Assembly: GCA_030549335.1 (NCBI GenBank)
Contig: CM060196.1
Coordinates: forward strand, 7,517,501-7,581,500
Direction: 5' to 3'
DNA: 64,000 nucleotides
DNA from: Pontederia crassipes
Lineage: Eukaryota; Streptophyta; Magnoliopsida; Commelinales; Pontederiaceae
The number at the start of each line of letters is the position of its first letter. Position 1 is the stretch's first letter. A program made the position numbers and the translations under genes. The notes beneath the pieces are model-generated. The model searched no databases, had not been told where the DNA came from, and saw nothing but the letters and a program-made list of their open reading frames with translations. Below are positions 2,966-55,685 of this stretch, in pieces.

Positions 2966-5034
2966 TTAACCTATAATTATATTGTTTGTGAGCTCGAATT
3001 GATCAAAATCTTCTTCAACTTTAAAACATAGTGACGATAGCCAACTTTGTGTGCACACGAGAGCTTCTGCCATTTTGGACGATAGAGAACTCCTAAAAAA
3101 ATCAAGAATGTGTCCTCCAGTGCTAAAGATAGACTCCGAAGGAACTGTAGAGATTGAAATGGCCAAAACATCATGTGCCATTAGAGAGAACACTTTATAC
3201 TTTGTAGAATTGACCTTCCACCAATTTAGAATATCAAAATTCTCTTCACCCTTACAAGGTTCCATTAAATATCTTTCAATTTCAGATTTGTTATCGATAT
3301 TCTTTTTTTCCTTTTGCATTCTACTCCATTGATGAATTCTTGCTATCTTCTCATCAATATTTACATTTTTAGCCCCAGATATAGAATTTGTATTCTTCAC
3401 TTGAGAAGTTGAGTCATTACTACCCTCATGTGCATAATAGTCATACATACGAAACATGCTATCTTGAATCTTTGTAACAACCATAGTAGCTATGGTTGAA
3501 TAATAAAGATTCGTATAGTTTCATTCAATGTAGCCAAGTTTATATCTAGGATCTAATACAACAACAATAAATATCAATGGATTAATATTTCAGGTTTTCA
3601 CAAATACTTATCGTATTTAGATCTCATGTCGCAAGCCATCTTTTGCAAGTATGCATCATGACCATTGCTTCATTTTGCAATTTGAGATTGAACAAATACA
3701 ATCTGATGAAAGCAAGCACAAGAGGTCACAAATGAAGAGCCAAATAAATTACATGTTGCATCATAAAAAAATTTCAGAAACATCACAAAATTTCGAGCAA
3801 TTTCTCAATCTTCAGTTGTTGGCGGCACACAATTGTTATCTTTGAAATGTGATTGGTATCCCCTATCTTCTTCATCCAACATCTCAAATACTTTTTGAAA
3901 TTTTTCAGCTCGTTCCAACATTAAATAGGTTGAATTCCATCGAGTTGGAACATCCATAATAACACTATATTGGCTAGTAATTTTCTCCTCTTGTATAAAT
4001 CTTTTGAATTTTTCAAATCGTGCCGGAGATGATCTCACATAGCGAACAGCCTCACGAATTGATACAATCGTTGATTTCATATCTTGCAAACCATCTTTGA
4101 TCATAAGATTTAGTGTATGTGCACAACATCTGATGTGAATAAAATTAGCATTACAAATTAAACTTTTCCAATTATTTAATCTCTTTTTCAAATGACCAAT
4201 AGCTTTATCATTGGCCGAAGCATTGTCGACGGTGATGGTGAATACCTTTTCAATTTCCCATGCTAATAAACACTTTTCAACAGCTTTAGCAATGTCCTCG
4301 CGTTTATGACTTTCAATTGAACAAAGATTAAGAACCTTTTTATGTAAAACTCAATTTTCATCAATAAAGTGTGATGTGAAACACATATAACACAATTTCT
4401 GACAAAATGTCCAAGTGTCAGTGGTTAGGTAAATACATGAAGAAGACTTCTTAAAAAGTGCCTTGAGTTTTTCCATTTCGTCAAGATATAATTGATAACA
4501 ATCTCTTGCAATAGTAAATCTTGAAGGAATCATAAATCTAGGTTTCAAACATTTTGAATACTTTCGAAAATCAACACCTTCTACAACTCTGAAAGCTTGC
4601 TCATCGCATATCACAAACTCAGCCAAGGCTCTTCTGCAGTCCTCATAGTTATATGAATGAGGGACTAATGATTTTGCTACTCCTTGTAAGCTTTGTACCA
4701 ACATCTTCTGTCCCTTCACTTCACTTCTATGCGGGAACCTCTTGCATCTTTTTAAATATTTAAATAAATAAGTAGTCCCATGTTTATTAGGATCTGCAGC
4801 AAAATCATTTCTACAATATTTGCACCTTACTCTAACTTCATGATATGAAGTAAACTTTTCAAAATGATTCCAGGTTTCAGATTTATTTTTACTAGGCTTC
4901 CTCTTAACTATCTCTATTTGATTGGAAGTATCAATACTTCCTTATACATGATTTGGATTAGATTGTGCAGACTCGATCAAGATATCACCGGAAATAGGAT
5001 TAGACCCAATATTAGTCATTGCATTATCCTCCAT
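2966..5034 (-). pseudogene. hAT transposase, BED finger to hATC domain
   Basis: Starting at ATG 5034 the minus strand reads an acidic leader, then a BED zinc finger (WNHFEKF, CKYC, LFKYLKRC at about residues 55-97), then the hAT catalytic core. The core has LTTDTWT (first Asp), TVDNASAND (second Asp) and CCAHTLNLMIKDGL. It ends in an hATC dimerisation domain with PSESIFSTGGHILDFFRSS (the catalytic Glu) and ALVCTQSWL. Frame is kept from 5034 to 3805 but is broken by a TAA after residue 30, a TGA at 4351-4353 (family has Trp after FIDEN) and a TGA at 3805-3807 (family has SEDW). A frameshift precedes the last segment (3484-2966). The BED finger His is Tyr here (KYL for RHL). The D-D-E residues survive but the gene cannot encode a full transposase. 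Enzyme role: cut-and-paste transposition in the nucleus. Confidence 0.88.
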
Positions 5035-8021: not shown

Positions 8022-8407
8022 ACAAAGTTAACATATATTAATATTATTAAATATGATATATTACTATTATATATGATTATGAGTAGTCATTTTAATTAAA
8101 TCCATGAAATATATTTTTAATGCAATACATTTTCCGATTAACGATTTGTTATGATTATGATTAGTTGTGTTTTGGACATAAAACTAACATATTTAGATTT
8201 ATTTATATTACGTTCCAAATTTGGAGGATTAAGTTTATGATTAGTTTAAGTTATCTGATAGTATATATTTATATTATGTTTATGATTTGAAATACGATGC
8301 TATTATATGCTATACTAACAGATAACTTATATACATATATATATATATATATATATAATCATGTTAATATTTGGATACATTGATTATGATTAATTACATA
8401 GGCTAAT

Positions 8408-8575
8408 CGAAAATCCTATTCCTAATCAAATTAGATTTACTTTCTAGATTTAATTTATTACCAACTTTATTATAAGACTTTTTATTTTCTTTTGAAAATC
8501 CTACTCGTAGTGAAATTAGATTTAGTGTGTGGATTTAATTTATTACCATATTTAAAATTTTATAATAATATTATT
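8408..8575 (+). repeat. AT-rich ~96-bp unit, two copies
   Basis: AAAATCCTATTCCTAATC and AAAATCCTACTCGTAGTG each start a segment continuing with AAATTAGATTTA and GGATTTAATTTATTACC. Related units lie in 11925-12200 and 16335-16610 and a fragment near 515. Confidence 0.5.
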
Positions 8576-8806
8576 TTATATTATGTAAATAAATTCAAAT
8601 TTGTAGAAGATTATATTTTTATTTTAATATGTTAGTAAACATTTACATACGAGGATTGGAATTATATTTAGAGTAAAATTACATATTAGAATTAGTTATA
8701 TATATATATATATATATATTAGTACTATAAATTATAATTATGATTAGTTATTATTAATATATGACACATGTCATCATCATAATAAGTCATTTATCATGCT
8801 CTCATT

Positions 8807-9546
8807 AGGGCTGAGCACGGTCCGGTCGACCCGGACCGCACCGACCCGGAAAATCGGGATAAAAACCCGGTCCGGATCCAATCCGGGCCGGAATCGAGTC
8901 CAAGTAATGAAAAATTCGATGGGTTTCAGGTCAGGATCAGGTTTACAATCTAAATACCTGATCTGGACCCGACCCTAGTTATTAGTATATAACATCCATT
9001 TCTTCATTTCCCCTCTCACTTCCTCTCTCCATCTCTCGAGTCTCGCCCTCTCCCTCTTTCTCTCTCTCTCATGATGACGGCGACAGCGGCGACGACTCCA
9101 GCCGACCTCCCCTCTCCTGACTCTACTTGGCCGCCAGGAGTGTCGCAATCCTGCCGCCAAGCATCACGATCCGCCACGATCCCTAGCGGTTGATCTCGGC
9201 CGCCAGGCGTCGGATTTGGCGCCTGGCGGCCGGATCGATCGTCGGGCGGCCAGATCTAGCCCCCTGGCGGTCGATCCGGCCACCAAGCGTTGGATCTGGC
9301 CGCCCGACGGTCAATCCTGGTGCCTGGCGGCCGAATTTGACCACTGGCGACCGATCCGATGCCATATCCAGCGTCGGATCGGCCCCCAGGTGAGTCGATC
9401 CGGCCGCCAAGCGTCGATCCGGACGTCGGATCGTGGAGCGTCAAGCACGCGATTCGAATGGCGTTTCTTGACGATTCCCGACCGCAAACCCGATCGTATT
9501 TTCGGATTATCGGGTCTGACCCGAAACCGGATCCAGCCGGTTTGTA
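8807..9546 (+). mobile_element. GC-rich non-autonomous hAT-like element, copy 1
   Basis: It starts TAGGGCTGAGCACGGTCCGG, matching the hAT terminus at 1445 in the first 12 bases (TAGRGCTGAGCA), and ends in CCGAAACCGGATCCAGCCGG just before a (TAG)n tract. The interior is much richer in GC than its flanks and carries degenerate repeats of GGCCGCCAGGCGTCGGAT (9194-9450). A TATA-like TAGTATATAACATCC (8990-9000), a CT-rich stretch (9001-9070) and an ATG with a 40-codon ORF (9071-9193) look like a captured promoter and leader. No transposase is present. The right terminus and target duplication were not found; the trinucleotide tract sits where they should be. Confidence 0.5.
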
Positions 9547-9571
9547 ATAGTAGTAGTAGCAGTAGTAGTAA

Positions 9572-9615
<44 letters not shown>

Positions 9616-9637
9616 ATAGTAGTAGTAGTAGTAGTAA
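9547..9637 (+). repeat. (TAG)n microsatellite
   Basis: An interrupted (TAG)n tract of about 30 units lies directly at the right edge of the GC-rich element. Poly-Ser or poly-Leu ORFs across it are artefacts. Confidence 0.95.
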
Positions 9638-10492
9638 TATGATTAGAATTAGTTGTTTTAACTGTACATATATTATTTTATATATCATATTATTAGTATT
9701 AATATCTCTATTTAAACAAAACCAAAACTATACAATTAAATAACATAATCTAAAATGACTAATCTAAATTCTTATATTTCAATCTAGCTATTAATTGGGA
9801 AAATAAAAAAATTATGATTTAAAATGAAAATAATTCAAAGTGATGATAATCATAAAGAATGATGCCCTTAAATTATGTGTGTGAGAGAGTTAAAATTCAT
9901 GTCCCTATCGTAATCTTTTAATTATTATTAGTCAAATATAGAATTCATATTAGAAAGAAATTGGATAAGATGTGCGTGACAAAAATTTCAGGGCCTAGCT
10001 ACCCTAGTTAATAATATAATCAAGATGCATTAATGTAAAAACTAAAAACTAAATCCACTTTAATATACTCTCAATTAAGATGCATTAATGTAAAAGGTTG
10101 CTTAAAGTAAATGACTTAAAAATTTGAGAACTTAGATATCTTAGAAGTTAAAAACAATGAAAATTTGATCAACTTAAACTTACTTTATATAAGATGTTTT
10201 AAATTGCAAATCTCTGTTTAATGACAGAATTGTTAGTAATTACAATTAATTTACTAACCATAATATCACACAAATAGAACTTGGCCTAGGTTTTGACTAC
10301 ATTTCAATCCATGAAAAATAACAAAGTAAACCGGCCTGTATTGGATCCTATATTCCTATTCGGCTCGGGTTCTCCGCACAAGAGAAGAGCAAATTGATTA
10401 ACTTTCTCTTACATTTATCATGCAAAATTATATATACTTATGCAAGAAACTACAAAATTCAGATAAAGCATTAAGGATTAAAGGGCGTCACC
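9638..10492. other. AT-rich DNA between elements (also 14048-14902)
   Basis: No gene is recognised. A short internal direct repeat, AGATGCATTAATGTAAAA, occurs at about 10023 and 10078. Confidence 0.45.
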
Positions 10493-10501
10493 CATTAAAA
10501 T

Positions 10502-11268
10502 AAGTGGATGCTCCCACCTAGATCCCGATCTAGATATGAGGGCAGAGATCAAAGACGTGATTTAGCATCGGTTTGAGCGACCATTCAGCATTTAGTGAAG
10601 CAACGGTTCAACATTTTTTGCCCTAGGTGTGACCCACGCCTTAGATGCGCCCGCTCAATCATCAATCCACGATTGCCGCACTCGCGCTCGCCCTCTCGCC
10701 ATCTACGTCGCATGCTCGGTCGCTACTGACCCGCTCGGTTGTTGCTCACTGTCGCCTCGCTCGACTCGATCTATTGCTCGCCTGTCGTCGCCACCCTCGA
10801 ATGGTGAAGTCAAAGCAACTATTATGTGAGTCCGGTGGGTTGTGAGAAGATCCAACAAGAACTGGGTGAAAAGGATGGAGTAGAGGCAAGTTTGGGAGAA
10901 GTTGGGTGGTCAAGTTCTGAGCAGGCATCGAGCGTGATGAGGGTCAGATATGATGGAGTTTGGGGGAGGGAAGAGCTGAGGCAGACAAGTTCCGAGCAAT
11001 CATCGAGGGGTGGAGATGGCGCAACTCAGGGAGGGAAGAGGTGAGGCGACCGAGTTCTGAGCAAGTGGCGATGACGGTGAGGTTTCATTCTAAGCTCTCC
11101 GAGCAGGCAGTGGGGTTGGCGAGACAGAGTCTCACGAATTGATGGGTTTTCTTTTTCGTCCCACCCCACTGAATTGCCCATGCTACCACCTGTACCAAGC
11201 ACTGAACCGTTTCTTCAAACTCTGTCGTCAAATTGGAGGGTGTACAGTCTAGGTGGGAGTGTCCACCT
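10502..11268. mobile_element. Mutator-type element with GC-rich cargo, copy 1
   Basis: Left end AAGTGGATGCTCCCACCTAG and the reverse complement of the right end AGGTGGACACTCCCACCTAG form terminal inverted repeats. Both sides carry the identical 9-bp target duplication CATTAAAAT (10493-10501 and 11269-11277), as in Mutator-like elements. The interior (about 10620-11150) is clearly richer in GC than its surroundings and is open in several short frames, but I recognise no protein. It has no transposase, so it is non-autonomous. GC-rich cargo is typical of Pack-MULEs that captured gene fragments; that capture is inference here. Confidence 0.8.
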
Positions 11269-11277
11269 CATTAAAAT

Positions 11278-12240
11278 GGATTGGACATCCATTGTATCCA
11301 AGCATTAAACATTCATCATAATCATGTTCTCAAAAGTTTAAATAGTAAAATATATTAAGATAAAATAGATATTCAACCTAGTCTTCTTGTAACGATTAGA
11401 CTATAACATAATAAGAAGAATTAACATTAAATTCATAAAGAAAATATAAAATAAAAATTGAAAATTATAAATCATAGCCCTGAAGTTGAACAATGCCTCT
11501 ACTTATAGACAAAATTGTTATTCATCTTTTAGATTTGTTATTTTTTGTTATGTAACAAACCTTTTATTATAAGATGTGTTAAAATAATAGCAAAATGTAT
11601 TGTGTCATATTTTATATTTTTTGGGATATCCACTCGACGCCTTGAGTATCTAAGGTTATTAGCATATGACTAATCTAGAGTTGGGGTAAAAAGCAACACG
11701 ATATTCCCTTGAACAAGTGATGACTAAAGGGATCGAGCATGGGATTACTAGTTCATAGTGACTCATTGGAATACAATCATATTCAGTTGTGCCAACCAAA
11801 CTTGATTATCATATTTTATATTTTGTATATTAACTGTATTTATGATTATAATTAGAAAATAATATGACACATAAGGTCTAAAATATTTTGATGTATCTTA
11901 TTAGTTCTAGATATGTTTAAAACTCCTACTCTTACTCAAATTAAAGTAAATTTTTATATTTAGTATAATTTAGTTTCCAATTATTTATCTATTTTTTCTT
12001 GATTAATCAAATCAAAACTCCTACTTCTATTCAAATTAAATTAATCTTGTATGTTTAATCTCATTTAGTTGTCAATTATACATATATTAGTATCTTATAT
12101 AAAAAAATTATTATTAAATTTTTATTTAAACTAATAAAAAATTATGAAACTCGTACATCACCCAAATTAAATTCACTTTTTGTATTTAATTTAATTTAAG
12201 TTATTTCATCAATTCATTTTATTCCACCAAGAAATGAATT
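11278..12240. other. AT-rich DNA with ~100-bp repeats (also 15688-16650)
   Basis: No gene is seen. From about 11925 to 12200 there are three diverged copies of a unit that begins like AAACTCCTACTCTTACTC, continues with AAATTAAA and ends with TTTAGTTNNCAATTAT. Confidence 0.45.
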
Positions 12241-12249
12241 CTGTTGGAA

Positions 12250-13067
12250 ATTCCATTAGAGTTAGAATTTTTTTCAATTGCAGACCAAGAGATCCCGTCA
12301 AATGCTTCAGGGCTTTCCTTAATCCCAGACATCCATAATATGTTTGGTAATTTCAGTTCACACAATCTCTCAGTATTTTTTTATAGAATTCAACTGTAAA
12401 TCCTTCAGGGCTTTCCTTAATCCCAGACTTCCAGTCCCCATAGACTATCTTTTATTTCTTTCTCAATCAGATGGCCATGCCAGCTGGGATGAAGCTTGGG
12501 AAGGGAAGGTCAAGTAACAGGGTTAATAATGTAGTGTTGTCTGAAGGCACCTCTAATTTGGTACTCCTCGATTATCATATGGCCATCATTGTCAATTATG
12601 GTGGAAATGTTGTTGGTTTTAGCTCTAATTATAGTTGACAGATGGAAGAATTTTGTATTTTTATCCCCATGTTACAGCCAGCATGTTCGTGATTTACTCC
12701 ACCATTTAATACTTCTCTGTATTAAATATGTCAAATGCTTGTTGTATGTGGCTCTTAAGATTAGAAGTTCTTGTATAGATAGACCAAAGAATTCATCCTT
12801 ATGTTCAGGTTGCTTTATCAGGTCCTGTGCTTTTAGCTGCCTTATTTTCCAACCTTCCCAGTTCATTTTTATTCTAGAGTAAAGTTTTCTTTTTTATTTG
12901 GCTTAAGGCCCTATTGATATCTTTGTTTGGCAAACAATTTGTCCATTCTCTGTACACAATATTCCTGGTTCTGCATGTTCAAACAAAAAATGTTCATATT
13001 TGAAAGCCTTTGATCTTCTTATGTAGTGATTTGTAGTTAAGATTAAAGATGGATGGTCAAATGCATA
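12250..13067 (-). pseudogene. LINE ORF2 fragment cut by duplication
   Basis: The minus strand encodes the stretch between endonuclease and reverse transcriptase of an L1-like plant LINE. Motifs include KYEHFLFEH, MNWEGWKIRQLKAQ, KWWSKSRTCWL-stop-HGDKNTKFFH (family: WLxxGDKNTKFFH) and then the degraded start of the reverse transcriptase. A 26-base segment starting CTTCAGGGCTTTCC is repeated at 12305 and 12403. The fragment stops abruptly at 13067, where it abuts the left edge of unit 2, so it is a duplicate cut off from its own endonuclease. It has stops and frameshifts. Confidence 0.8.
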
Positions 13068-13216
13068 TTAGAATTACATTTAGAGTAAAATTACATATTA
13101 GAATTAGTTATATATATATATATATATATTAGTACTATAAATTATAATTATGATTAGTTATTATTAATATATGACACATGTCATCATCATAATAAGTCAT
13201 TTATCATGCTCTCATT

Positions 13217-13956
13217 AGGGCTGAGCACGGTCCGGTCGACCCGGACCGCACCGACCCGGAAAATCGGGATAAAAACCCGGTCCGGATCCAATCCGGGCCG
13301 GAATCGAGTCCAAGTAATGAAAAATTCGATGGGTTTCAGGTCAGGATCAGGTTTACAATCTAAATACCTGATCTGGACCCGACCCTAGTTATTAGTATAT
13401 AACATCCATTTCTTCATTTCCCCTCTCACTTCCTCTCTCCATCTCTCGAGTCTCGCCCTCTCCCTCTTTCTCTCTCTCTCATGATGACGGCGACAGCGGC
13501 GACGACTCCAGCCGACCTCCCCTCTCCTGACTCTACTTGGCCGCCAGGAGTGTCGCAATCCTGCCGCCAAGCATCACGATCCGCCACGATCCCTAGCGGT
13601 TGATCTCGGCCGCCAGGCGTCGGATTTGGCGCCTGGCGGCCGGATCGATCGTCGGGCGGCCAGATCTAGCCCCCTGGCGGTCGATCCGGCCACCAAGCGT
13701 TGGATCTGGCCGCCCGACGGTCAATCCTGGTGCCTGGCGGCCGAATTTGACCACTGGCGACCGATCCGATGCCATATCCAGCGTCGGATCGGCCCCCAGG
13801 TGAGTCGATCCGGCCGCCAAGCGTCGATCCGGACGTCGGATCGTGGAGCGTCAAGCACGCGATTCGAATGGCGTTTCTTGACGATTCCCGACCGCAAACC
13901 CGATCGTATTTTCGGATTATCGGGTCTGACCCGAAACCGGATCCAGCCGGTTTGTA
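13217..13956 (+). mobile_element. GC-rich non-autonomous hAT-like element, copy 2
   Basis: Identical to 8807-9546. It arose by segmental duplication rather than transposition, because its flanks are duplicated too. Confidence 0.5.
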
Positions 13957-13981
13957 ATAGTAGTAGTAGCAGTAGTAGTAA

Positions 13982-14025
<44 letters not shown>

Positions 14026-14047
14026 ATAGTAGTAGTAGTAGTAGTAA
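13957..14047 (+). repeat. (TAG)n microsatellite, duplicated copy
   Basis: Same length and interruptions as 9547-9637. Length identity of such an unstable tract argues for a very recent duplication or an assembly duplicate. Confidence 0.95.
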
Positions 14048-14911
14048 TATGATTAGAATTAGTTGTTTTAACTGTACATATATTATTTTATATATCATAT
14101 TATTAGTATTAATATCTCTATTTAAACAAAACCAAAACTATACAATTAAATAACATAATCTAAAATGACTAATCTAAATTCTTATATTTCAATCTAGCTA
14201 TTAATTGGGAAAATAAAAAAATTATGATTTAAAATGAAAATAATTCAAAGTGATGATAATCATAAAGAATGATGCCCTTAAATTATGTGTGTGAGAGAGT
14301 TAAAATTCATGTCCCTATCGTAATCTTTTAATTATTATTAGTCAAATATAGAATTCATATTAGAAAGAAATTGGATAAGATGTGCGTGACAAAAATTTCA
14401 GGGCCTAGCTACCCTAGTTAATAATATAATCAAGATGCATTAATGTAAAAACTAAAAACTAAATCCACTTTAATATACTCTCAATTAAGATGCATTAATG
14501 TAAAAGGTTGCTTAAAGTAAATGACTTAAAAATTTGAGAACTTAGATATCTTAGAAGTTAAAAACAATGAAAATTTGATCAACTTAAACTTACTTTATAT
14601 AAGATGTTTTAAATTGCAAATCTCTGTTTAATGACAGAATTGTTAGTAATTACAATTAATTTACTAACCATAATATCACACAAATAGAACTTGGCCTAGG
14701 TTTTGACTACATTTCAATCCATGAAAAATAACAAAGTAAACCGGCCTGTATTGGATCCTATATTCCTATTCGGCTCGGGTTCTCCGCACAAGAGAAGAGC
14801 AAATTGATTAACTTTCTCTTACATTTATCATGCAAAATTATATATACTTATGCAAGAAACTACAAAATTCAGATAAAGCATTAAGGATTAAAGGGCGTCA
14901 CCCATTAAAAT

Positions 14912-15678
14912 AAGTGGATGCTCCCACCTAGATCCCGATCTAGATATGAGGGCAGAGATCAAAGACGTGATTTAGCATCGGTTTGAGCGACCATTCAGCA
15001 TTTAGTGAAGCAACGGTTCAACATTTTTTGCCCTAGGTGTGACCCACGCCTTAGATGCGCCCGCTCAATCATCAATCCACGATTGCCGCACTCGCGCTCG
15101 CCCTCTCGCCATCTACGTCGCATGCTCGGTCGCTACTGACCCGCTCGGTTGTTGCTCACTGTCGCCTCGCTCGACTCGATCTATTGCTCGCCTGTCGTCG
15201 CCACCCTCGAATGGTGAAGTCAAAGCAACTATTATGTGAGTCCGGTGGGTTGTGAGAAGATCCAACAAGAACTGGGTGAAAAGGATGGAGTAGAGGCAAG
15301 TTTGGGAGAAGTTGGGTGGTCAAGTTCTGAGCAGGCATCGAGCGTGATGAGGGTCAGATATGATGGAGTTTGGGGGAGGGAAGAGCTGAGGCAGACAAGT
15401 TCCGAGCAATCATCGAGGGGTGGAGATGGCGCAACTCAGGGAGGGAAGAGGTGAGGCGACCGAGTTCTGAGCAAGTGGCGATGACGGTGAGGTTTCATTC
15501 TAAGCTCTCCGAGCAGGCAGTGGGGTTGGCGAGACAGAGTCTCACGAATTGATGGGTTTTCTTTTTCGTCCCACCCCACTGAATTGCCCATGCTACCACC
15601 TGTACCAAGCACTGAACCGTTTCTTCAAACTCTGTCGTCAAATTGGAGGGTGTACAGTCTAGGTGGGAGTGTCCACCT
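14912..15678. mobile_element. Mutator-type element with GC-rich cargo, copy 2
   Basis: Identical to 10502-11268, with the same CATTAAAAT target duplications at 14903-14911 and 15679-15687. It was copied with the tandem unit and is not an independent insertion. Confidence 0.8.
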
Positions 15679-16659
15679 CATTAAAATGGATTGGACATCC
15701 ATTGTATCCAAGCATTAAACATTCATCATAATCATGTTCTCAAAAGTTTAAATAGTAAAATATATTAAGATAAAATAGATATTCAACCTAGTCTTCTTGT
15801 AACGATTAGACTATAACATAATAAGAAGAATTAACATTAAATTCATAAAGAAAATATAAAATAAAAATTGAAAATTATAAATCATAGCCCTGAAGTTGAA
15901 CAATGCCTCTACTTATAGACAAAATTGTTATTCATCTTTTAGATTTGTTATTTTTTGTTATGTAACAAACCTTTTATTATAAGATGTGTTAAAATAATAG
16001 CAAAATGTATTGTGTCATATTTTATATTTTTTGGGATATCCACTCGACGCCTTGAGTATCTAAGGTTATTAGCATATGACTAATCTAGAGTTGGGGTAAA
16101 AAGCAACACGATATTCCCTTGAACAAGTGATGACTAAAGGGATCGAGCATGGGATTACTAGTTCATAGTGACTCATTGGAATACAATCATATTCAGTTGT
16201 GCCAACCAAACTTGATTATCATATTTTATATTTTGTATATTAACTGTATTTATGATTATAATTAGAAAATAATATGACACATAAGGTCTAAAATATTTTG
16301 ATGTATCTTATTAGTTCTAGATATGTTTAAAACTCCTACTCTTACTCAAATTAAAGTAAATTTTTATATTTAGTATAATTTAGTTTCCAATTATTTATCT
16401 ATTTTTTCTTGATTAATCAAATCAAAACTCCTACTTCTATTCAAATTAAATTAATCTTGTATGTTTAATCTCATTTAGTTGTCAATTATACATATATTAG
16501 TATCTTATATAAAAAAATTATTATTAAATTTTTATTTAAACTAATAAAAAATTATGAAACTCGTACATCACCCAAATTAAATTCACTTTTTGTATTTAAT
16601 TTAATTTAAGTTATTTCATCAATTCATTTTATTCCACCAAGAAATGAATTCTGTTGGAA

Positions 16660-18056
16660 ATTCCATTAGAGTTAGAATTTTTTTCAATTGCAGACCAAGA
16701 GATCCCGTCAAATGCTTCAGGGCTTTCCTTAATCCCAGACATCCATAATATGTTTGGTAATTTCAGTTCACACAATCTCTCAGTATTTTTTTATAGAATT
16801 CAACTGTAAATCCTTCAGGGCTTTCCTTAATCCCAGACTTCCAGTCCCCATAGACTATCTTTTATTTCTTTCTCAATCAGATGGCCATGCCAGCTGGGAT
16901 GAAGCTTGGGAAGGGAAGGTCAAGTAACAGGGTTAATAATGTAGTGTTGTCTGAAGGCACCTCTAATTTGGTACTCCTCGATTATCATATGGCCATCATT
17001 GTCAATTATGGTGGAAATGTTGTTGGTTTTAGCTCTAATTATAGTTGACAGATGGAAGAATTTTGTATTTTTATCCCCATGTTACAGCCAGCATGTTCGT
17101 GATTTACTCCACCATTTAATACTTCTCTGTATTAAATATGTCAAATGCTTGTTGTATGTGGCTCTTAAGATTAGAAGTTCTTGTATAGATAGACCAAAGA
17201 ATTCATCCTTATGTTCAGGTTGCTTTATCAGGTCCTGTGCTTTTAGCTGCCTTATTTTCCAACCTTCCCAGTTCATTTTTATTCTAGAGTAAAGTTTTCT
17301 TTTTTATTTGGCTTAAGGCCCTATTGATATCTTTGTTTGGCAAACAATTTGTCCATTCTCTGTACACAATATTCCTGGTTCTGCATGTTCAAACAAAAAA
17401 TGTTCATATTTGAAAGCCTTTGATCTTCTTATGTAGTGATTTGTAGTTAAGATTAAAGATGGATGGTCAAATGCATAGTGAGGGAGGGTGTGCGGACCAA
17501 GCTGAGGGTGGGTTCACATCCATCGATGGTTTAATAAAAGTCTATATAGGCAACATAAGATTCTCTCATTGCTAGATCTATTATTACTCCAAGTAAAATG
17601 GAAGTTTTTTGGACTTATATCAATTAAGCCTTGATTTTGGATTAAATTTTTAAGTGCCTCAAGTGATTTGGTTATTTTGAAAGGGGCACCTCCCTTTTTG
17701 TCTGTAGGGTTGATAATTGAGTTTAGGTCACCCATGATTGCCCATGGGGCATCCTCCATGTTTAGTTTGTTCAATTTATTCTAAAGATTCATATGTGTTA
17801 CGGGAGTAGTGCTAGCATAAACACATGATAGAAGAAATAAAAAATTATGTTGAGTAACTACTGCATGTATAATTTGAGAACTTCTATGGATAGATGTCAC
17901 TTGGATGTTGGTACCGGTCCAGGGGAGGATGATCCCCCCGGATGCGTCATTTCCAACTTGGACGATCGCTTGACACTGCCTACCAAGCCTCCTAATAATT
18001 TGGAGGCCCCATTTTGCTATTCTTGCTTGGTCGGAGCTGCAGATCCGGATTCCCAT
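16660..18056 (-). pseudogene. LINE ORF2, endonuclease into RT start
   Basis: This is the original ORF2 of an L1-like LINE. It begins in an apurinic-type endonuclease domain: IVQVGNDASGGIILPW and FLLSCVYAST (17781-18056), then WAIMGDLNSIINPTDKKGG and GLIDISPKNFHFTWSNNRSS (17514-17774). It continues across 17477 as PHYAFDHPSLILTTN and KYEHFLFEHAEPG into GDKNTKFFH and a broken reverse transcriptase start near 16660-16900. The later RT, zinc-binding and RNase H parts are missing. The protein would nick target DNA and prime reverse transcription. Frameshifts and stops make it non-functional. Confidence 0.82.
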
Positions 18057-22560: not shown

Positions 22561-23256
22561 TGATGCATGCAAAATACAACATACATTTAGCCATGCATTT
22601 AATCTCATTTCGAATAATTTTTTAATAGCATGCATAATTTTATGCACTTATTTAGATTAATTTTACAAAAATAAAAATCTACCCAAATGTTAGATTTTAT
22701 TGTCTAGTAAGCAAGAAAACTGAAATATGAAGCCAATGGAGAAAATCATGTTCAAATCGAAATAAAATGGAACTAGAAAATGAAAAATAGTGAAGCTACA
22801 TAACGCTGAAATCACACTATAATGGGCCATGAAGGATGTTTCACGGGCAGTGAAACATGACCGTTAAAATGTATTTTATCACGTCCTGAAAGGTGCTCAA
22901 GACACGGGCGTGACCAGACTTTTACGGGGCGTGAAATCCACTATTTTACTCCAAATCAAGGGTCATTAAATCACCATCGCCATGAAAATCCATTTTTGTC
23001 CAATTCAGACACTGGTAAGGCCGTTAAAATGTTGTTACAAGCTGTGACGAAGTATATATTCGAGATTTGGATGAATTTTTGGAAGAATTTTAAATGCACA
23101 AGGACTCCTACTCATACTATATGATCCCAAGATGATTTGGAAATATTTTATATTCAAATTTTGGAGTTTTACAAGGCCAAAATTTCATAATCAATTAAAC
23201 TCCGAATTTTTCTTATTTTAGCATAGAAAATGTTTCTGTTTCTTCTCCAACCACAT
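22561..23256 (+). repeat. 5' LTR (truncated) of the Ty3 relic
   Basis: Similar to 26240-26845, including AAATTTAGCC-type text at the start, CACGGGCGTGACC motifs, GGAAGAATTTTAAATGCAC and TTCTTCTCCAACCACAT. It carries about 100 extra bases near 22680-22810. Homology ends sharply at 23256; the last ~975 bp of the LTR are absent. Confidence 0.75.
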
Positions 23257-25502: not shown

Positions 25503-25988
25503 TCTTGATGTGTCTGGATGATTAGATCCGTAGGAAATTCTTGCCTTGCGACCTAAGGGCAACTGCTCTGAGATCCGTCAATCAAAAGTCCATTACATGA
25601 ACTACCTTGTGCAATATGGTGAAGCACATAAGTACGAAATCAACAATAAAAAAAGTGAATGAAAATATCAAAAGTTTTAAAGTGAATAAGTTTTAAATCG
25701 AAAATACATAAGCTCAGTATGCACTTATATTTTCAACATTGAGACTCTTGATGTGTCTGGATGATTAGATCCGTAGGAAATTCTTGCCTTGCGACCTAAG
25801 GGCAACTGCTCTGAGATCCGTCAATCAAAAGTCCATTACATGAACTACCTTGTGCAATATGGTGAAGCACATAAGTACGAAATCAACAATAAAAAAAGTG
25901 AATGAAAATATCAAAAGTTTTAAAGTGAATAAGTTTTAAATAAAAAATACATAAGCTCAGTATGCACTTATATTTTCAACATTGAGAC
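25503..25988 (+). repeat. Tandem duplication, 243-bp unit, two copies
   Basis: Units 25503-25745 and 25746-25988 both begin TCTTGATGTGTCTGGATG and end TTTTCAACATTGAGAC. The only difference noticed is AAATCGAAAA versus AAATAAAAAA near the end. It is a recent local duplication within the internal region of the Ty3 relic. Confidence 0.92.
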
Positions 25989-26239: not shown

Positions 26240-27821
26240 TGATATATGCAAAATGCAAGATATATTTAGCCATGCATTTAATTTCATTTCGAATTATTTT
26301 CTAATAGTATTCATCATTTTATGAGCTTATTTATATTAATTTTACAATAATAAAGATTTGCACTGTAACGGGTCGTTAAAGATGTTTCATTGGTCATGAA
26401 AAATGACCGCAAACACTTTAATAGGTTTTTAAAATACATTTTCTCACGTTCAGAAAGGTGCTAGAGACACAGCCATGATGAGGTTTTCAAGGGCCGTGAA
26501 ATCCAATGTTTTACTTCAAATCGAACACTCTAAGGACTCTAAGGGCTGCTAAATCACCATCTCATGCCGTGAAAATCTATTTTTAGTTCGATTCGGACAC
26601 TGTTGTGATCGTTAAAACGTTGTTACAGACCGTAACGATGTGCAGATTCGATATTTGGATGGATTTTTGGAAGAATTTTAAATGCACAAAGATTCCTACT
26701 CATACTATATGATCCCAAGGTGATTTGGAAACATATTATGCATCAAATTTCGGAGTTTGACAAGGACAAAATTTCATAATCAATTAAACTCCGAATTTTT
26801 CTTATTATGACATAAAAAATGTTTATGTTTCTTCTCCAACCACATGAATCATGAACCCATATAAATAGAGGTCTTTTACAGCCAAAAGAGATGATGCTAG
26901 AGCGTGCAATCAGAGTTTTGAAGTCAAGAAACGTAATAGAATTTAGAAGGCTCGGCGAGAAAATTTCTGCACGATTGACTCTAGACGAGGACCAAGTAGC
27001 AGTTCATCGGTGTTCCTAAGAGTATTCTATGTTCTATTTCATGGTGGGATGATCTTATGCTTAATTGATACATTATTCTATCTTTTGTAATTCGAATAAT
27101 TTAGTTTTATTTCTATTTAAGACAATTGTAATAGTTTTAATCAATAAGGGCAAACTGTTAAACTTTATTTCATAATCGAATATAGTTCAATTTTCTTTCG
27201 AATATGCATGCTATTATTAATGTTCTTTCAAATATTAATTGCCTTCTTTAGTTAGCTATCATCCTTATAGGAGTAATTACTTTTGATTGCATAATTTATG
27301 TGGAATTGATTCTTGATTTTCAAGTCCAAGCATTGCATGTCACAATTCATATGATCCTTGACGGAATATTAGTTGTGTGGTCTATTAATCATTATCATGG
27401 TATGACTAGATTTTTATGCATCATAATCTCATGTTTGATTATATTATAATTCATGACGGAATACTCTTAATATAATTTGAATTAAGATAGGTTGATTGAT
27501 TATATATGAAAATTAATAATTTGAGTAGACTTTAATTCGTCGTTAGAAATTAACTCCTAATATTTGGTCAATTCAGTTTGTCTACAATTTCGTTTATAAT
27601 CCTAAGTCATAGACATCAATATATTATATTAGATTAATTTAGTTTCAGTCTTTACTTTTATGTTATTTTATTTTTTAAGCATTTTTACCCAAACTTTATG
27701 TTGTCTCTTATTAGTCTCTTAGATTAGTTTAGTTAAATAAGTTACACTCTACTCATTACATTTTATTACTTTAGCGACTAGTGCACTTGCTAGCATTTAA
27801 TTGTTATAAATTCTTGCATCA
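26240..27821 (+). repeat. 3' LTR of the Ty3 relic (1582 bp)
   Basis: Starts TGATATATGC and ends CTTGCATCA. It has a promoter-like CCCATATAAATAGAGG at about 26857-26872 that the truncated 5' LTR lacks. It overlaps the 5' LTR over its first ~605 bp with many substitutions, so the insertion is old. Confidence 0.75.
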
Positions 27822-35829: not shown

Positions 35830-37570
35830 ATTAGAATACCATAGTAATCCGAATACAAAATGTCGTGAATGTTCGGAGGTGGCAAGTTCACCCAAAAATG
35901 ATCGAAATTAATCGATCGGCCGTAGTTGGCCAGGAAATAACAGCGCGATTAGTTTGTCGGTATACATGTGTAATTTTTAAAAAGAGAAAGGAGTCCAAAA
36001 GGGCATGGATGTCAGCAAGCAGGTGCATGATACGTCAAGGCGGCTGAGCAGGAGGCTGCGAGGGCAGAGAAGCATTCGTAGGGTAGAGAATGTTGATCAA
36101 GTTAGAGGAGTCACACTCCACGATGAGATGGGAGATGCTGCGATCCATACAGCACTGAAGACCCCAGTGGAGACCCCAAGCCTCAGTAGTGAAGCAACGT
36201 TTAAGAGCACCTGCATAAATAAAAGAGGAGTGAGAGCAGATAATATAACCTGCCCCCATGTTTAGACCAACAAAGGATCCATCTGAATTCAATTTGAATC
36301 ACCCACCTCACCCATGTGGGATCGCTGGTGGGGGTGTCCTCAGAGGTGTGGACGTTAACATATTCATTACAACCTGTCAAGGCCCGCACAAGGATCAAGT
36401 GATTGGTGGTTGACTGAGAAGAGAAGACCCAATTGTTACGCGCATTCCAAATCCCCCAAAGGGTGTAGACAATACAAGAAAGAAGCTTAGGCCGAGAGGA
36501 AGGATGCAGATGTGAGCCCTCCGTGAGCCAAGTAACGGAGGACCAAGTGTCAAAGAAAGTTAAAGGTAGCTCTAATTGATCTTGGAGCATGGTCCAAAGA
36601 GGGGCAACATGAGGGCAGAAGAAGAACAAGTGGTCACAAGTTTAAGGTGCATTGCTGCAAAAGGGGCAATCAGGATTGATTGTGGACACATAGCGGCTAA
36701 TAAGAGAACGAGTGGGGAGCCTTTGATGAAGAAGTTTCCATGCGAAATGCAACACTTTGGGAGAAGCCGGAATGCGCCACAAAGACTTCCAGTCCGTCCT
36801 ACCAGGTATCTGATCCGGCAGTGCCGGCAAAGTAAGGAATCTATAGATACTGTTGGCACGCGAACACCCATGAGTGTCATGCGTCCAGATCCACTTATCA
36901 TTCTTGAACAACGCAGGAAGGTAAATGGAGTTAATACGAGAGATGAGAGTCGGGCCGAAGTAAAGAGAGAGTATGATGGGGTCTCAGGAGCCATTATGGA
37001 TTAGAGAACTAACAGTCATCTGAGTGAGCTCGTTGTCCACAACAATGAATGTAGGGAAGCGACTAAGAGGAACATCAGAGAAACTGGGATCATCGAGGAG
37101 ATCGGTGGTGACACCGTCGCCGATAAGATGGCGCATGCCTAAGCGGATGGTAGCAGCGCTCTGCAAAAGCATACGCCAAGGCGGGGAGAATCGCCGAAGA
37201 GTAGCAGCAGAAGGAAGGGATGACCAGGGCCGGGGAACATGATACTTTTGTGCAACCAATTGGGATCATATATCGGAGCAAGAATTGAGGACAACAAAAA
37301 GTCTCTTGGCAATCAACAATGTGTGGACGATAGAGAGATTACGAATACCCAAGCCGTCGAGGTGCCTATGTGCCTGAATCCTACGTCAGCTGATGAGATG
37401 GAGACCATGGTGAGTGCCATCTGGAGACCGAAAAAAAGGTGTGCATGAGTTTCTCAAAAGACAGGATCGTTCCCGAAGAGATGCTAACCGAAGAGAGCAC
37501 GTGAATCGGAATAGAGTTAAGTACAGAATTGATAATAACAGTTCATCCAGCGGGTAACAGTATAACACTA
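35830..37570 (-). pseudogene. L1-like LINE ORF2, RT end to RNase H
   Basis: The minus strand reads, in order, the end of a reverse transcriptase (IPIHVLSSVSISSGTILSFE and MHTFFS at about 37430-37530; KYHVPRPWSSLPS at about 37210-37250), a zinc-binding zf-RVT domain (SLWRIPASPKVLHFAWKLLH, LPTRSLISRYVSTINPDCPF at 36645-36911), LWGIWNARNNWVF near 36440, and an RNase H domain at 36035-36292. The RNase H keeps three acidic active-site residues in MNSDGSF, TEAWGLHWGL and VECDSSNL. Frameshifts separate the blocks, so it is dead. The 3' end is placed only roughly and no target duplication was identified. It is a different part of the same broad class as the LINE at 16660-19863. Confidence 0.82.
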
Positions 37571-49914: not shown

Positions 49915-50700
49915 CTAGTTCCACAGAAGAGCTTCGAAGCTGGTCGGAGCTAAGGCGTCCGACGTCGCCCACAGGTGATCCGGCGGGGCAACCCCAAACT
50001 CGCCCCACGGTGTTGGGAACGGCCACGAGTCGACTGGGTCGTTGTAGTAAATGAACTCGCCACCGGAATCGGCCGAGTCCAGAAGGCACCCGTCGAGCGG
50101 CGGGAGCTCAATGATTTCTGCTAGCTCGTCGGACTCGGACTTGGCCTCCACAGCCACGGACGCAGGTGGGAGAGCGGCGGCATTCTCTGCCAGCCTGTGA
50201 TGGCCGTCGGAGGATGCGGCAGCTGCGGCGGAGGTGGGGTCCATGGATGCGGCCTTGGCGGCTGCGGCTTGCACGTCGCGGGGCGAAAGCGTCGCCGGCC
50301 GCGGGAGTGAGTCGGCGAGCTCCGGGAAGTTGAGGATAGCAGACGCGCCCTTGATGTTGAGCGCTGCCACGTCATGCGCGCGTGCAGCCATCTCCGGCGT
50401 CGGGAACGTCCCCAGCCATATGCGAGATTTTTTGCGGGGCTCCCTGATCTCTGACACCCACTTACCCCAGTTCCGCATCCGAACGCCGCGGTACATCGGG
50501 TGCCTGCTCCGGTCGCGGGACCTCTTGCCGCCTCCGGCACTGGGCCTATCCTTCGTCCCCGCTGTCACCTCTTCTGACGCCCCCATCGCTCGGCTCTGGA
50601 GCGCCTGCAACGGGGAAGACGAGGAGGATGGCGAGGAGACGGAAGAGGACATGGAATTGGCGCTGCTCTCTGTCTCAGAAGAATTCTGTGGGTCTGCCAT
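49915..50700 (-). CDS. DREB subfamily AP2/ERF transcription factor
   Basis: A 261-residue intronless protein. Start chosen at ATG 50700 ([13 protein letters not shown]): the frame extends upstream to 50811, but those residues do not look like the family and the Ser-rich N-terminus from 50700 does. Domains: Ser-rich residues 6-30; a basic nuclear-import-like stretch [13 protein letters not shown] (57-68); one AP2 DNA-binding domain about 70-127 ([45 protein letters not shown]-like end); a [13 protein letters not shown] motif (139-151) typical of group A-4 (TINY-like); an acidic patch [14 protein letters not shown] (191-204); and an aromatic C-terminus ending EALLWN. Val14 and Glu19 of the AP2 domain are the DREB type, which binds DRE/CRT elements (core CCGAC) in stress and developmental promoters. 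The exact orthologue cannot be named. Coding GC is far above the flanks, usual for this family. Confidence 0.95.
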
Positions 50701-51140
50701 TGACGCCAAAAAACGGACCTTTCGTCGGCGAATCGGGCTGCGAAGATGTTGAAGCCAGCAGAAGTCGCCCTTTAAGACTGGGTTTCGGTCACAAGGAGGA
50801 CAAAAGGGCACTGTTACGGTACTAAAAGGACGGATGTATGTAAACTACGACGAAGCAAACTTTTGCACCTCTTTAGTTTGCTAGCAGCAGAGCTATGACT
50901 GTTTGAAGCACTACTGAACGATTCAATGCAGGGCTATGAAAGCTTCAAGTACAAATAAACGAGACAGCTATAAATTGGAGTTACTGCCTTGGTCTCAGCT
51001 TAAGATTGATAAAGTGGAAGAAGAAACAAAAAGGTTGAAGCTTTTTGGCAGGTAAAGGATGAGAGGACCTTTTCTAATACAGAGAGATGGATGGGAGCTT
51101 CAATGGCGAAGTATCAATTGGTAGAGGAGAAAGGCGATTG

Positions 51141-55614: not shown

Positions 55615-55685
55615 TTTGCAAAGTTGGCCTTTGTATGAGTGGAATGATTCAGTCATTCCACTCATACAAAGGCCAACTTTGCAAA
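55615..55685. repeat. Perfect 33-bp inverted repeat, 5-base loop
   Basis: Left arm 55615-55647 (TTTGCAAAGTTGGCCTTTGT at its start) is the exact reverse complement of right arm 55653-55685, with loop TTCAG. No mismatch in 33 pairs. Transcription from either strand would give a near-perfect hairpin. Confidence 0.95.

Follow-up and report, generated by a model that had tools for sequence, protein, structure and literature searches.

A near-perfect 4.41-kb tandem duplication in Pontederia crassipes, probably recent and closed by error-prone end joining

Features of the window

The window, that is, the whole stretch of 64,000 nt of Pontederia crassipes DNA that was analysed, has a G+C content of 34.5% and contains no N. 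It holds 36 open reading frames (ORFs) of at least 100 aa, read from stop to stop, and a Pfam scan covered 18 of them; four of these 18 matched a Pfam family, each located outside the duplicated units described below. On the minus strand, a hAT dimerisation domain (2966-3520; E 2.6e-26) and a BED finger (4351-4941; E 3.8e-4) belong to a hAT transposase remnant (2966-4941) that is spread over three ORFs, the middle one of which (3805-4350) has no Pfam match. A reverse-transcriptase-associated zinc-binding domain (zf-RVT; 36642-36983, minus strand; E 7.7e-9) is likely a fragment of a non-LTR retrotransposon. In a G+C-rich region, Pfam identified a gene for an AP2-domain (ERF-like) protein (49915-50844, minus strand), whose best solved relatives are ERF-type factors, which we take to be plant proteins; among the 18 of 36 ORFs scanned it is the one likely host gene. 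This protein and the repeat content give the DNA a plant-like character. Throughout the window, no tRNA genes were detected by a search with bacterial settings, and no Rfam family matched at its gathering score.

A second near-perfect tandem duplication was observed at 25503-25988, where 243 nt occur twice. The two units differ at two adjacent bases, BLAST counting three mismatches because its alignment extends slightly further, to 247 nt; the copies, as read, overlap by 1 nt at their seam. It is flanked by a three-piece direct repeat (22561-23256 / 26240-26845) of 78-87% identity. This case suggests that tandem copying of other size and identity occurs in the window, a single example not being decisive. 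A near-perfect palindrome of 71 nt (95.8%) lies at 55615-55685.

The two units and their differences

An earlier note on this DNA had described a near-perfect tandem duplication of 4.41 kb, and its coordinates proved exact by both self-BLAST and a fixed-offset comparison: unit 1 occupies 8656..13067 (4412 nt) and unit 2 occupies 13068..17477 (4410 nt). By self-BLAST of the entire window (E <= 1e-10), 8655-13067 aligned with 13067-17477 over 4413 columns with 99.909% identity, two mismatches and one gap, and this was the sole repeat pair of at least 300 nt in the window. With an offset of 4410, the 4369 nt from 8699 to 13067 agree without any difference; with an offset of 4412, the match is unbroken from 8666 to 8717. 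Unit 1 has a G+C content of 37.2% and 140 CpG sites.

The differences are those that had been listed before. Two transitions at the left edge were placed by the fixed-offset comparison at unit positions 3 and 10 (TTGGAATTAT versus TTAGAATTAC), and the sole length difference is one TA dinucleotide, the repeat being (TA)11 in unit 1 (8697-8718) and (TA)10 in unit 2 (13109-13128). The (TAG)n-type tract, put earlier at about 90 bases, measures 93 nt in each unit (9544-9636 and 13954-14046) and is located inside the identical 4369-nt run. Of the 4411 columns, about 64 at the edge where the new seam sits contain all three differences; clustering of this kind at one edge was reached in 2 of 200000 random draws (about 1e-5), with a limit that was chosen post hoc.

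Content of the unit

The DNA had also been called transposon-rich, a description that has weak support inside the unit: there is one imperfect inverted-repeat pair, and no transposon protein domain was found in the ORFs and frames scanned there. The pair (10495-10522 / 11248-11275, inside unit 1) is 79% complementary and is one of 46 inverted-repeat pairs reported for 8401-13100, most of which are probably due to chance; 10495..11275 is a possible candidate for a small DNA transposon. Two of the four unit-1 ORFs of at least 100 aa were scanned, and neither matched Pfam, transposon domains included. By eye, the unit's right end resembles a decayed minus-strand LINE. Such an element is not claimed here, because none of the six stop-tolerant frames, taken from the right end of each unit and from the 1 kb that follows, rose above the Pfam cut-off, the one sub-threshold row being SduA_C with 13.8 bits against a cut-off of 27. 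Inside the unit there is also a 36-nt direct repeat (12300-12335 and 12398-12433), its copies 94% identical and 98 nt apart.

Seam and borders

The left border of unit 1 reads ACGAGGA/TTGGAATTATATTTAGAG, the seam between the units AAATGCATA/TTAGAATTACATTTAGAG, and the right border of unit 2 AAATGCATA/GTGAGGGAGG, the stroke marking the boundary. In its simple reading, the copies overlap by 1 nt at the seam, and two of the first ten bases are changed. The 13-nt word that spans it, CATATTAGAATTA (13064..13076), is composed of the last 4 nt of unit 1 and the first 9 nt of unit 2, and an exact copy, the proposed template, is present at 8682..8694, from unit position 27, as well as at 13094-13106 in unit 2. 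Among simulated junctions, a 13-nt match appeared in 2 of 20000 trials (0.0001) when the ends were random and in 4 of 20000 (0.0002) when the left end was held at its real place; when both ends were the real ones and two transitions were placed at random, 440 of 20000 (2.2%) already yielded one. The match was first noticed by eye and simulated afterwards, and the junction frequencies therefore flatter the template idea. The junction word had no matches in viral contigs, a collection where plant DNA is not expected.

A 1-kb stretch centred on one outer border was compared with its counterpart at the other; the best match had E 1.2, so that no border homology beyond chance was found. At the borders themselves no target-site duplication was detected: the flanks have in common just GAGG, 4 nt long and offset, and parts of 3 nt, and an 8-nt flank repeat is absent from the unit borders. 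A terminal inverted repeat was likewise not found, since the unit ends, compared as inverted repeats, agree at 10 of 30 positions. Identification of the unit as an LTR element, a Helitron or another element was rejected, as it has neither a border target-site duplication nor a terminal inverted repeat; the Helitron and LTR end rules, applied by eye, do not fit at both borders.

Origin of the duplication

If the assembly is right, the locus holds head-to-tail direct copies without long border homology, and the 4.41-kb units are probably a real, recent tandem duplication closed by error-prone end joining at a chromosome break, possibly with polymerase theta as the end-joining enzyme. In this scheme, a broken end would have been extended by about 4.4 kb with the sister chromatid as template, and the new 3' end, finishing in CATA, would have failed to rejoin its partner. 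Instead, it may have paired with the other broken end, at the CATA of 8682-8685, copied nine bases (TTAGAATTA) and let go, after which the released end would have re-paired on GAATTA (8659-8664) and been joined there, with one further base change. Steps of copying and re-pairing such as those proposed would fit end joining mediated by polymerase theta. They do not account for one of the base changes or for the TA step, and if no template was used the seam could equally come from low-quality bases at a contig start; both points count against end joining. In a narrower and rather unlikely version, polymerase theta would have made the seam in a single templated round of synthesis, and all differences would have arisen together with it, at the seam or next to it.

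Differences confined to one edge are expected if they arose during seam-making. From their clustering at the seam edge, the inter-unit differences therefore most likely date from that process, either through error-prone repair or through contig-end errors, and not from later drift; the TA step could also be a later microsatellite slip. The absence of changes in 4369 nt sets a 95% limit on divergence of 6.9e-4. At assumed rates of 1.3e-8 and 7e-9 substitutions per site and year, which are not species-specific, this would correspond to about 26,000 to 49,000 years, a small limit that holds only if the copies are real.

The choice had earlier been framed as one between a young duplication and an assembly duplicate. 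The frame is right, while the reference to collapsed haplotypes is reversed, since it is uncollapsed haplotypes that give extra copies. Taken over all its kinds, assembly error is a substantial minority possibility for the 4.4-kb repeat. Its main form, which we regard as rather unlikely, is that one 4.4-kb stretch entered the assembly two times, through overlapping contig ends or as a homotype false duplication, with no gap left at the join; the differences would then be consensus errors at a contig start. The absence of differences over 4369 nt is what one locus read twice would give, and those that do exist are confined to the units' left edge, which is also the start of unit 2. Errors in long reads, however, are mostly indels, and both base changes are transitions; nor does double assembly predict the 13-nt seam match, with the caveat of the 2.2% obtained when both ends are fixed. 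Homotype false duplications have been described, and a fraction of false duplications is found within a single scaffold, yet in the same source gaps characterise such same-scaffold pairs (PMC9516828), and no N separates the units here, although gap closing could hide a gap. The signs of false duplication named in that source comprise low depth, gaps between duplicated pairs, discordant linked reads and single-copy k-mers (Ko et al., PMC9516828); at the 4.4-kb repeat the gap alone was checked, and a gap is a usual sign, not a strict requirement. Placement of two haplotypes one behind the other (heterotype false duplication), named in that paper as the chief cause of false duplication in the three older assemblies, of birds and platypus, that it studied (PMC9516828), is very unlikely here: two haplotypes identical over 4369 nt, the 93-nt TAG tract among them, would need very low heterozygosity, although an inbred plant would permit it. 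Among the matches listed by a literature search, the term "false tandem duplication" was not used. Because no N is present and the seam carries the 13-nt match, the evidence leans to a real event, and the seam leans towards an ordinary recent break-repair accident more than towards an assembly error.

Mobile elements offer a further route, through hAT reversed-ends transposition, a head-to-tail LTR or Helitron array, or insertion of an extrachromosomal circle. Such an origin is highly improbable, with a small probability left for a simple circle insertion, even though the hAT transposase pieces (2966-4941) lie about 3.7 kb to the left and maize Ac ends are known to make tandem direct duplications (PMC3744419). 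Six short end motifs were scanned near the three borders: the four hAT-like motifs were present at none of the three, and of the two CACTA-type motifs, neither CACTA nor TAGTG occurs at the left border. TAGTG does span the right border (17476-17480). Near that border it occurs twice (17434 and 17476), and a single occurrence at 13024 lies about 44 nt from the seam. The lack of a target-site duplication at the borders and the 10 of 30 positions at which the unit ends match as inverted repeats also speak against a transposon. Unequal crossing-over (NAHR) was considered and rejected; with border homology absent between the 1-kb stretches, it has no evident substrate. Tandem duplications in rice were reportedly treated by Vaughn and Bennetzen in 2014. 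A rice study ascribes about half of its copy-number variants to non-homologous recombination, and gives homologous (NAHR) events a share of 0.48% (PMC4812662).

Comparison with known systems

The closest parallel to the end-joining reading comes from C. elegans helq-1 mutants, in which polymerase theta acts on failed copying intermediates and generates tandem duplications that range from about 100 bp to 10 kb (PMC8654963). These duplications have a median of about 1 kb and show microhomology and occasional templated insertions (Kamp et al., PMC8654963). The locus resembles them in its head-to-tail arrangement, its size within the range of 100 bp to 10 kb and perhaps also its seam, with a possible short microhomology and a templated-looking insertion, and differs in that the worm work rests on mutant lines, whole-genome reads and genetics, whereas here a single assembled locus is read from sequence alone. 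The same paper describes such duplications as rare in wild-type worms, which counts against the end-joining reading, and states that plants do not encode HELQ, with insertions that are mostly templated and often patchwork (PMC8654963).

Homotype false duplications (PMC9516828) share with the locus near-identical copies without haplotype-type differences, and are unlike it in that no gap lies between the 4.4-kb copies. The reversed-ends duplications of maize Ac are, like it, tandem, direct and found in a plant. The reported Ac/fAc duplications range from 8157 bp to 3.3 Mb and carry Ac/fAc ends and 8-bp target-site duplications at their breakpoints, neither of which was seen at the 4.4-kb units (PMC3744419).

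Implications

No gene was recognised in the unit, and a strong biological effect of the duplication is therefore not expected. Should the repeat be an artefact, it would show that a gapless seam does not prove duplication. If it is real, the locus would be a clean, datable case of break repair adding kilobase-scale DNA, with a seam that can still be read. And if the seam was indeed made in one round of templated synthesis, the locus would stand as a time-zero record of polymerase theta repair in a lineage said to lack HELQ.
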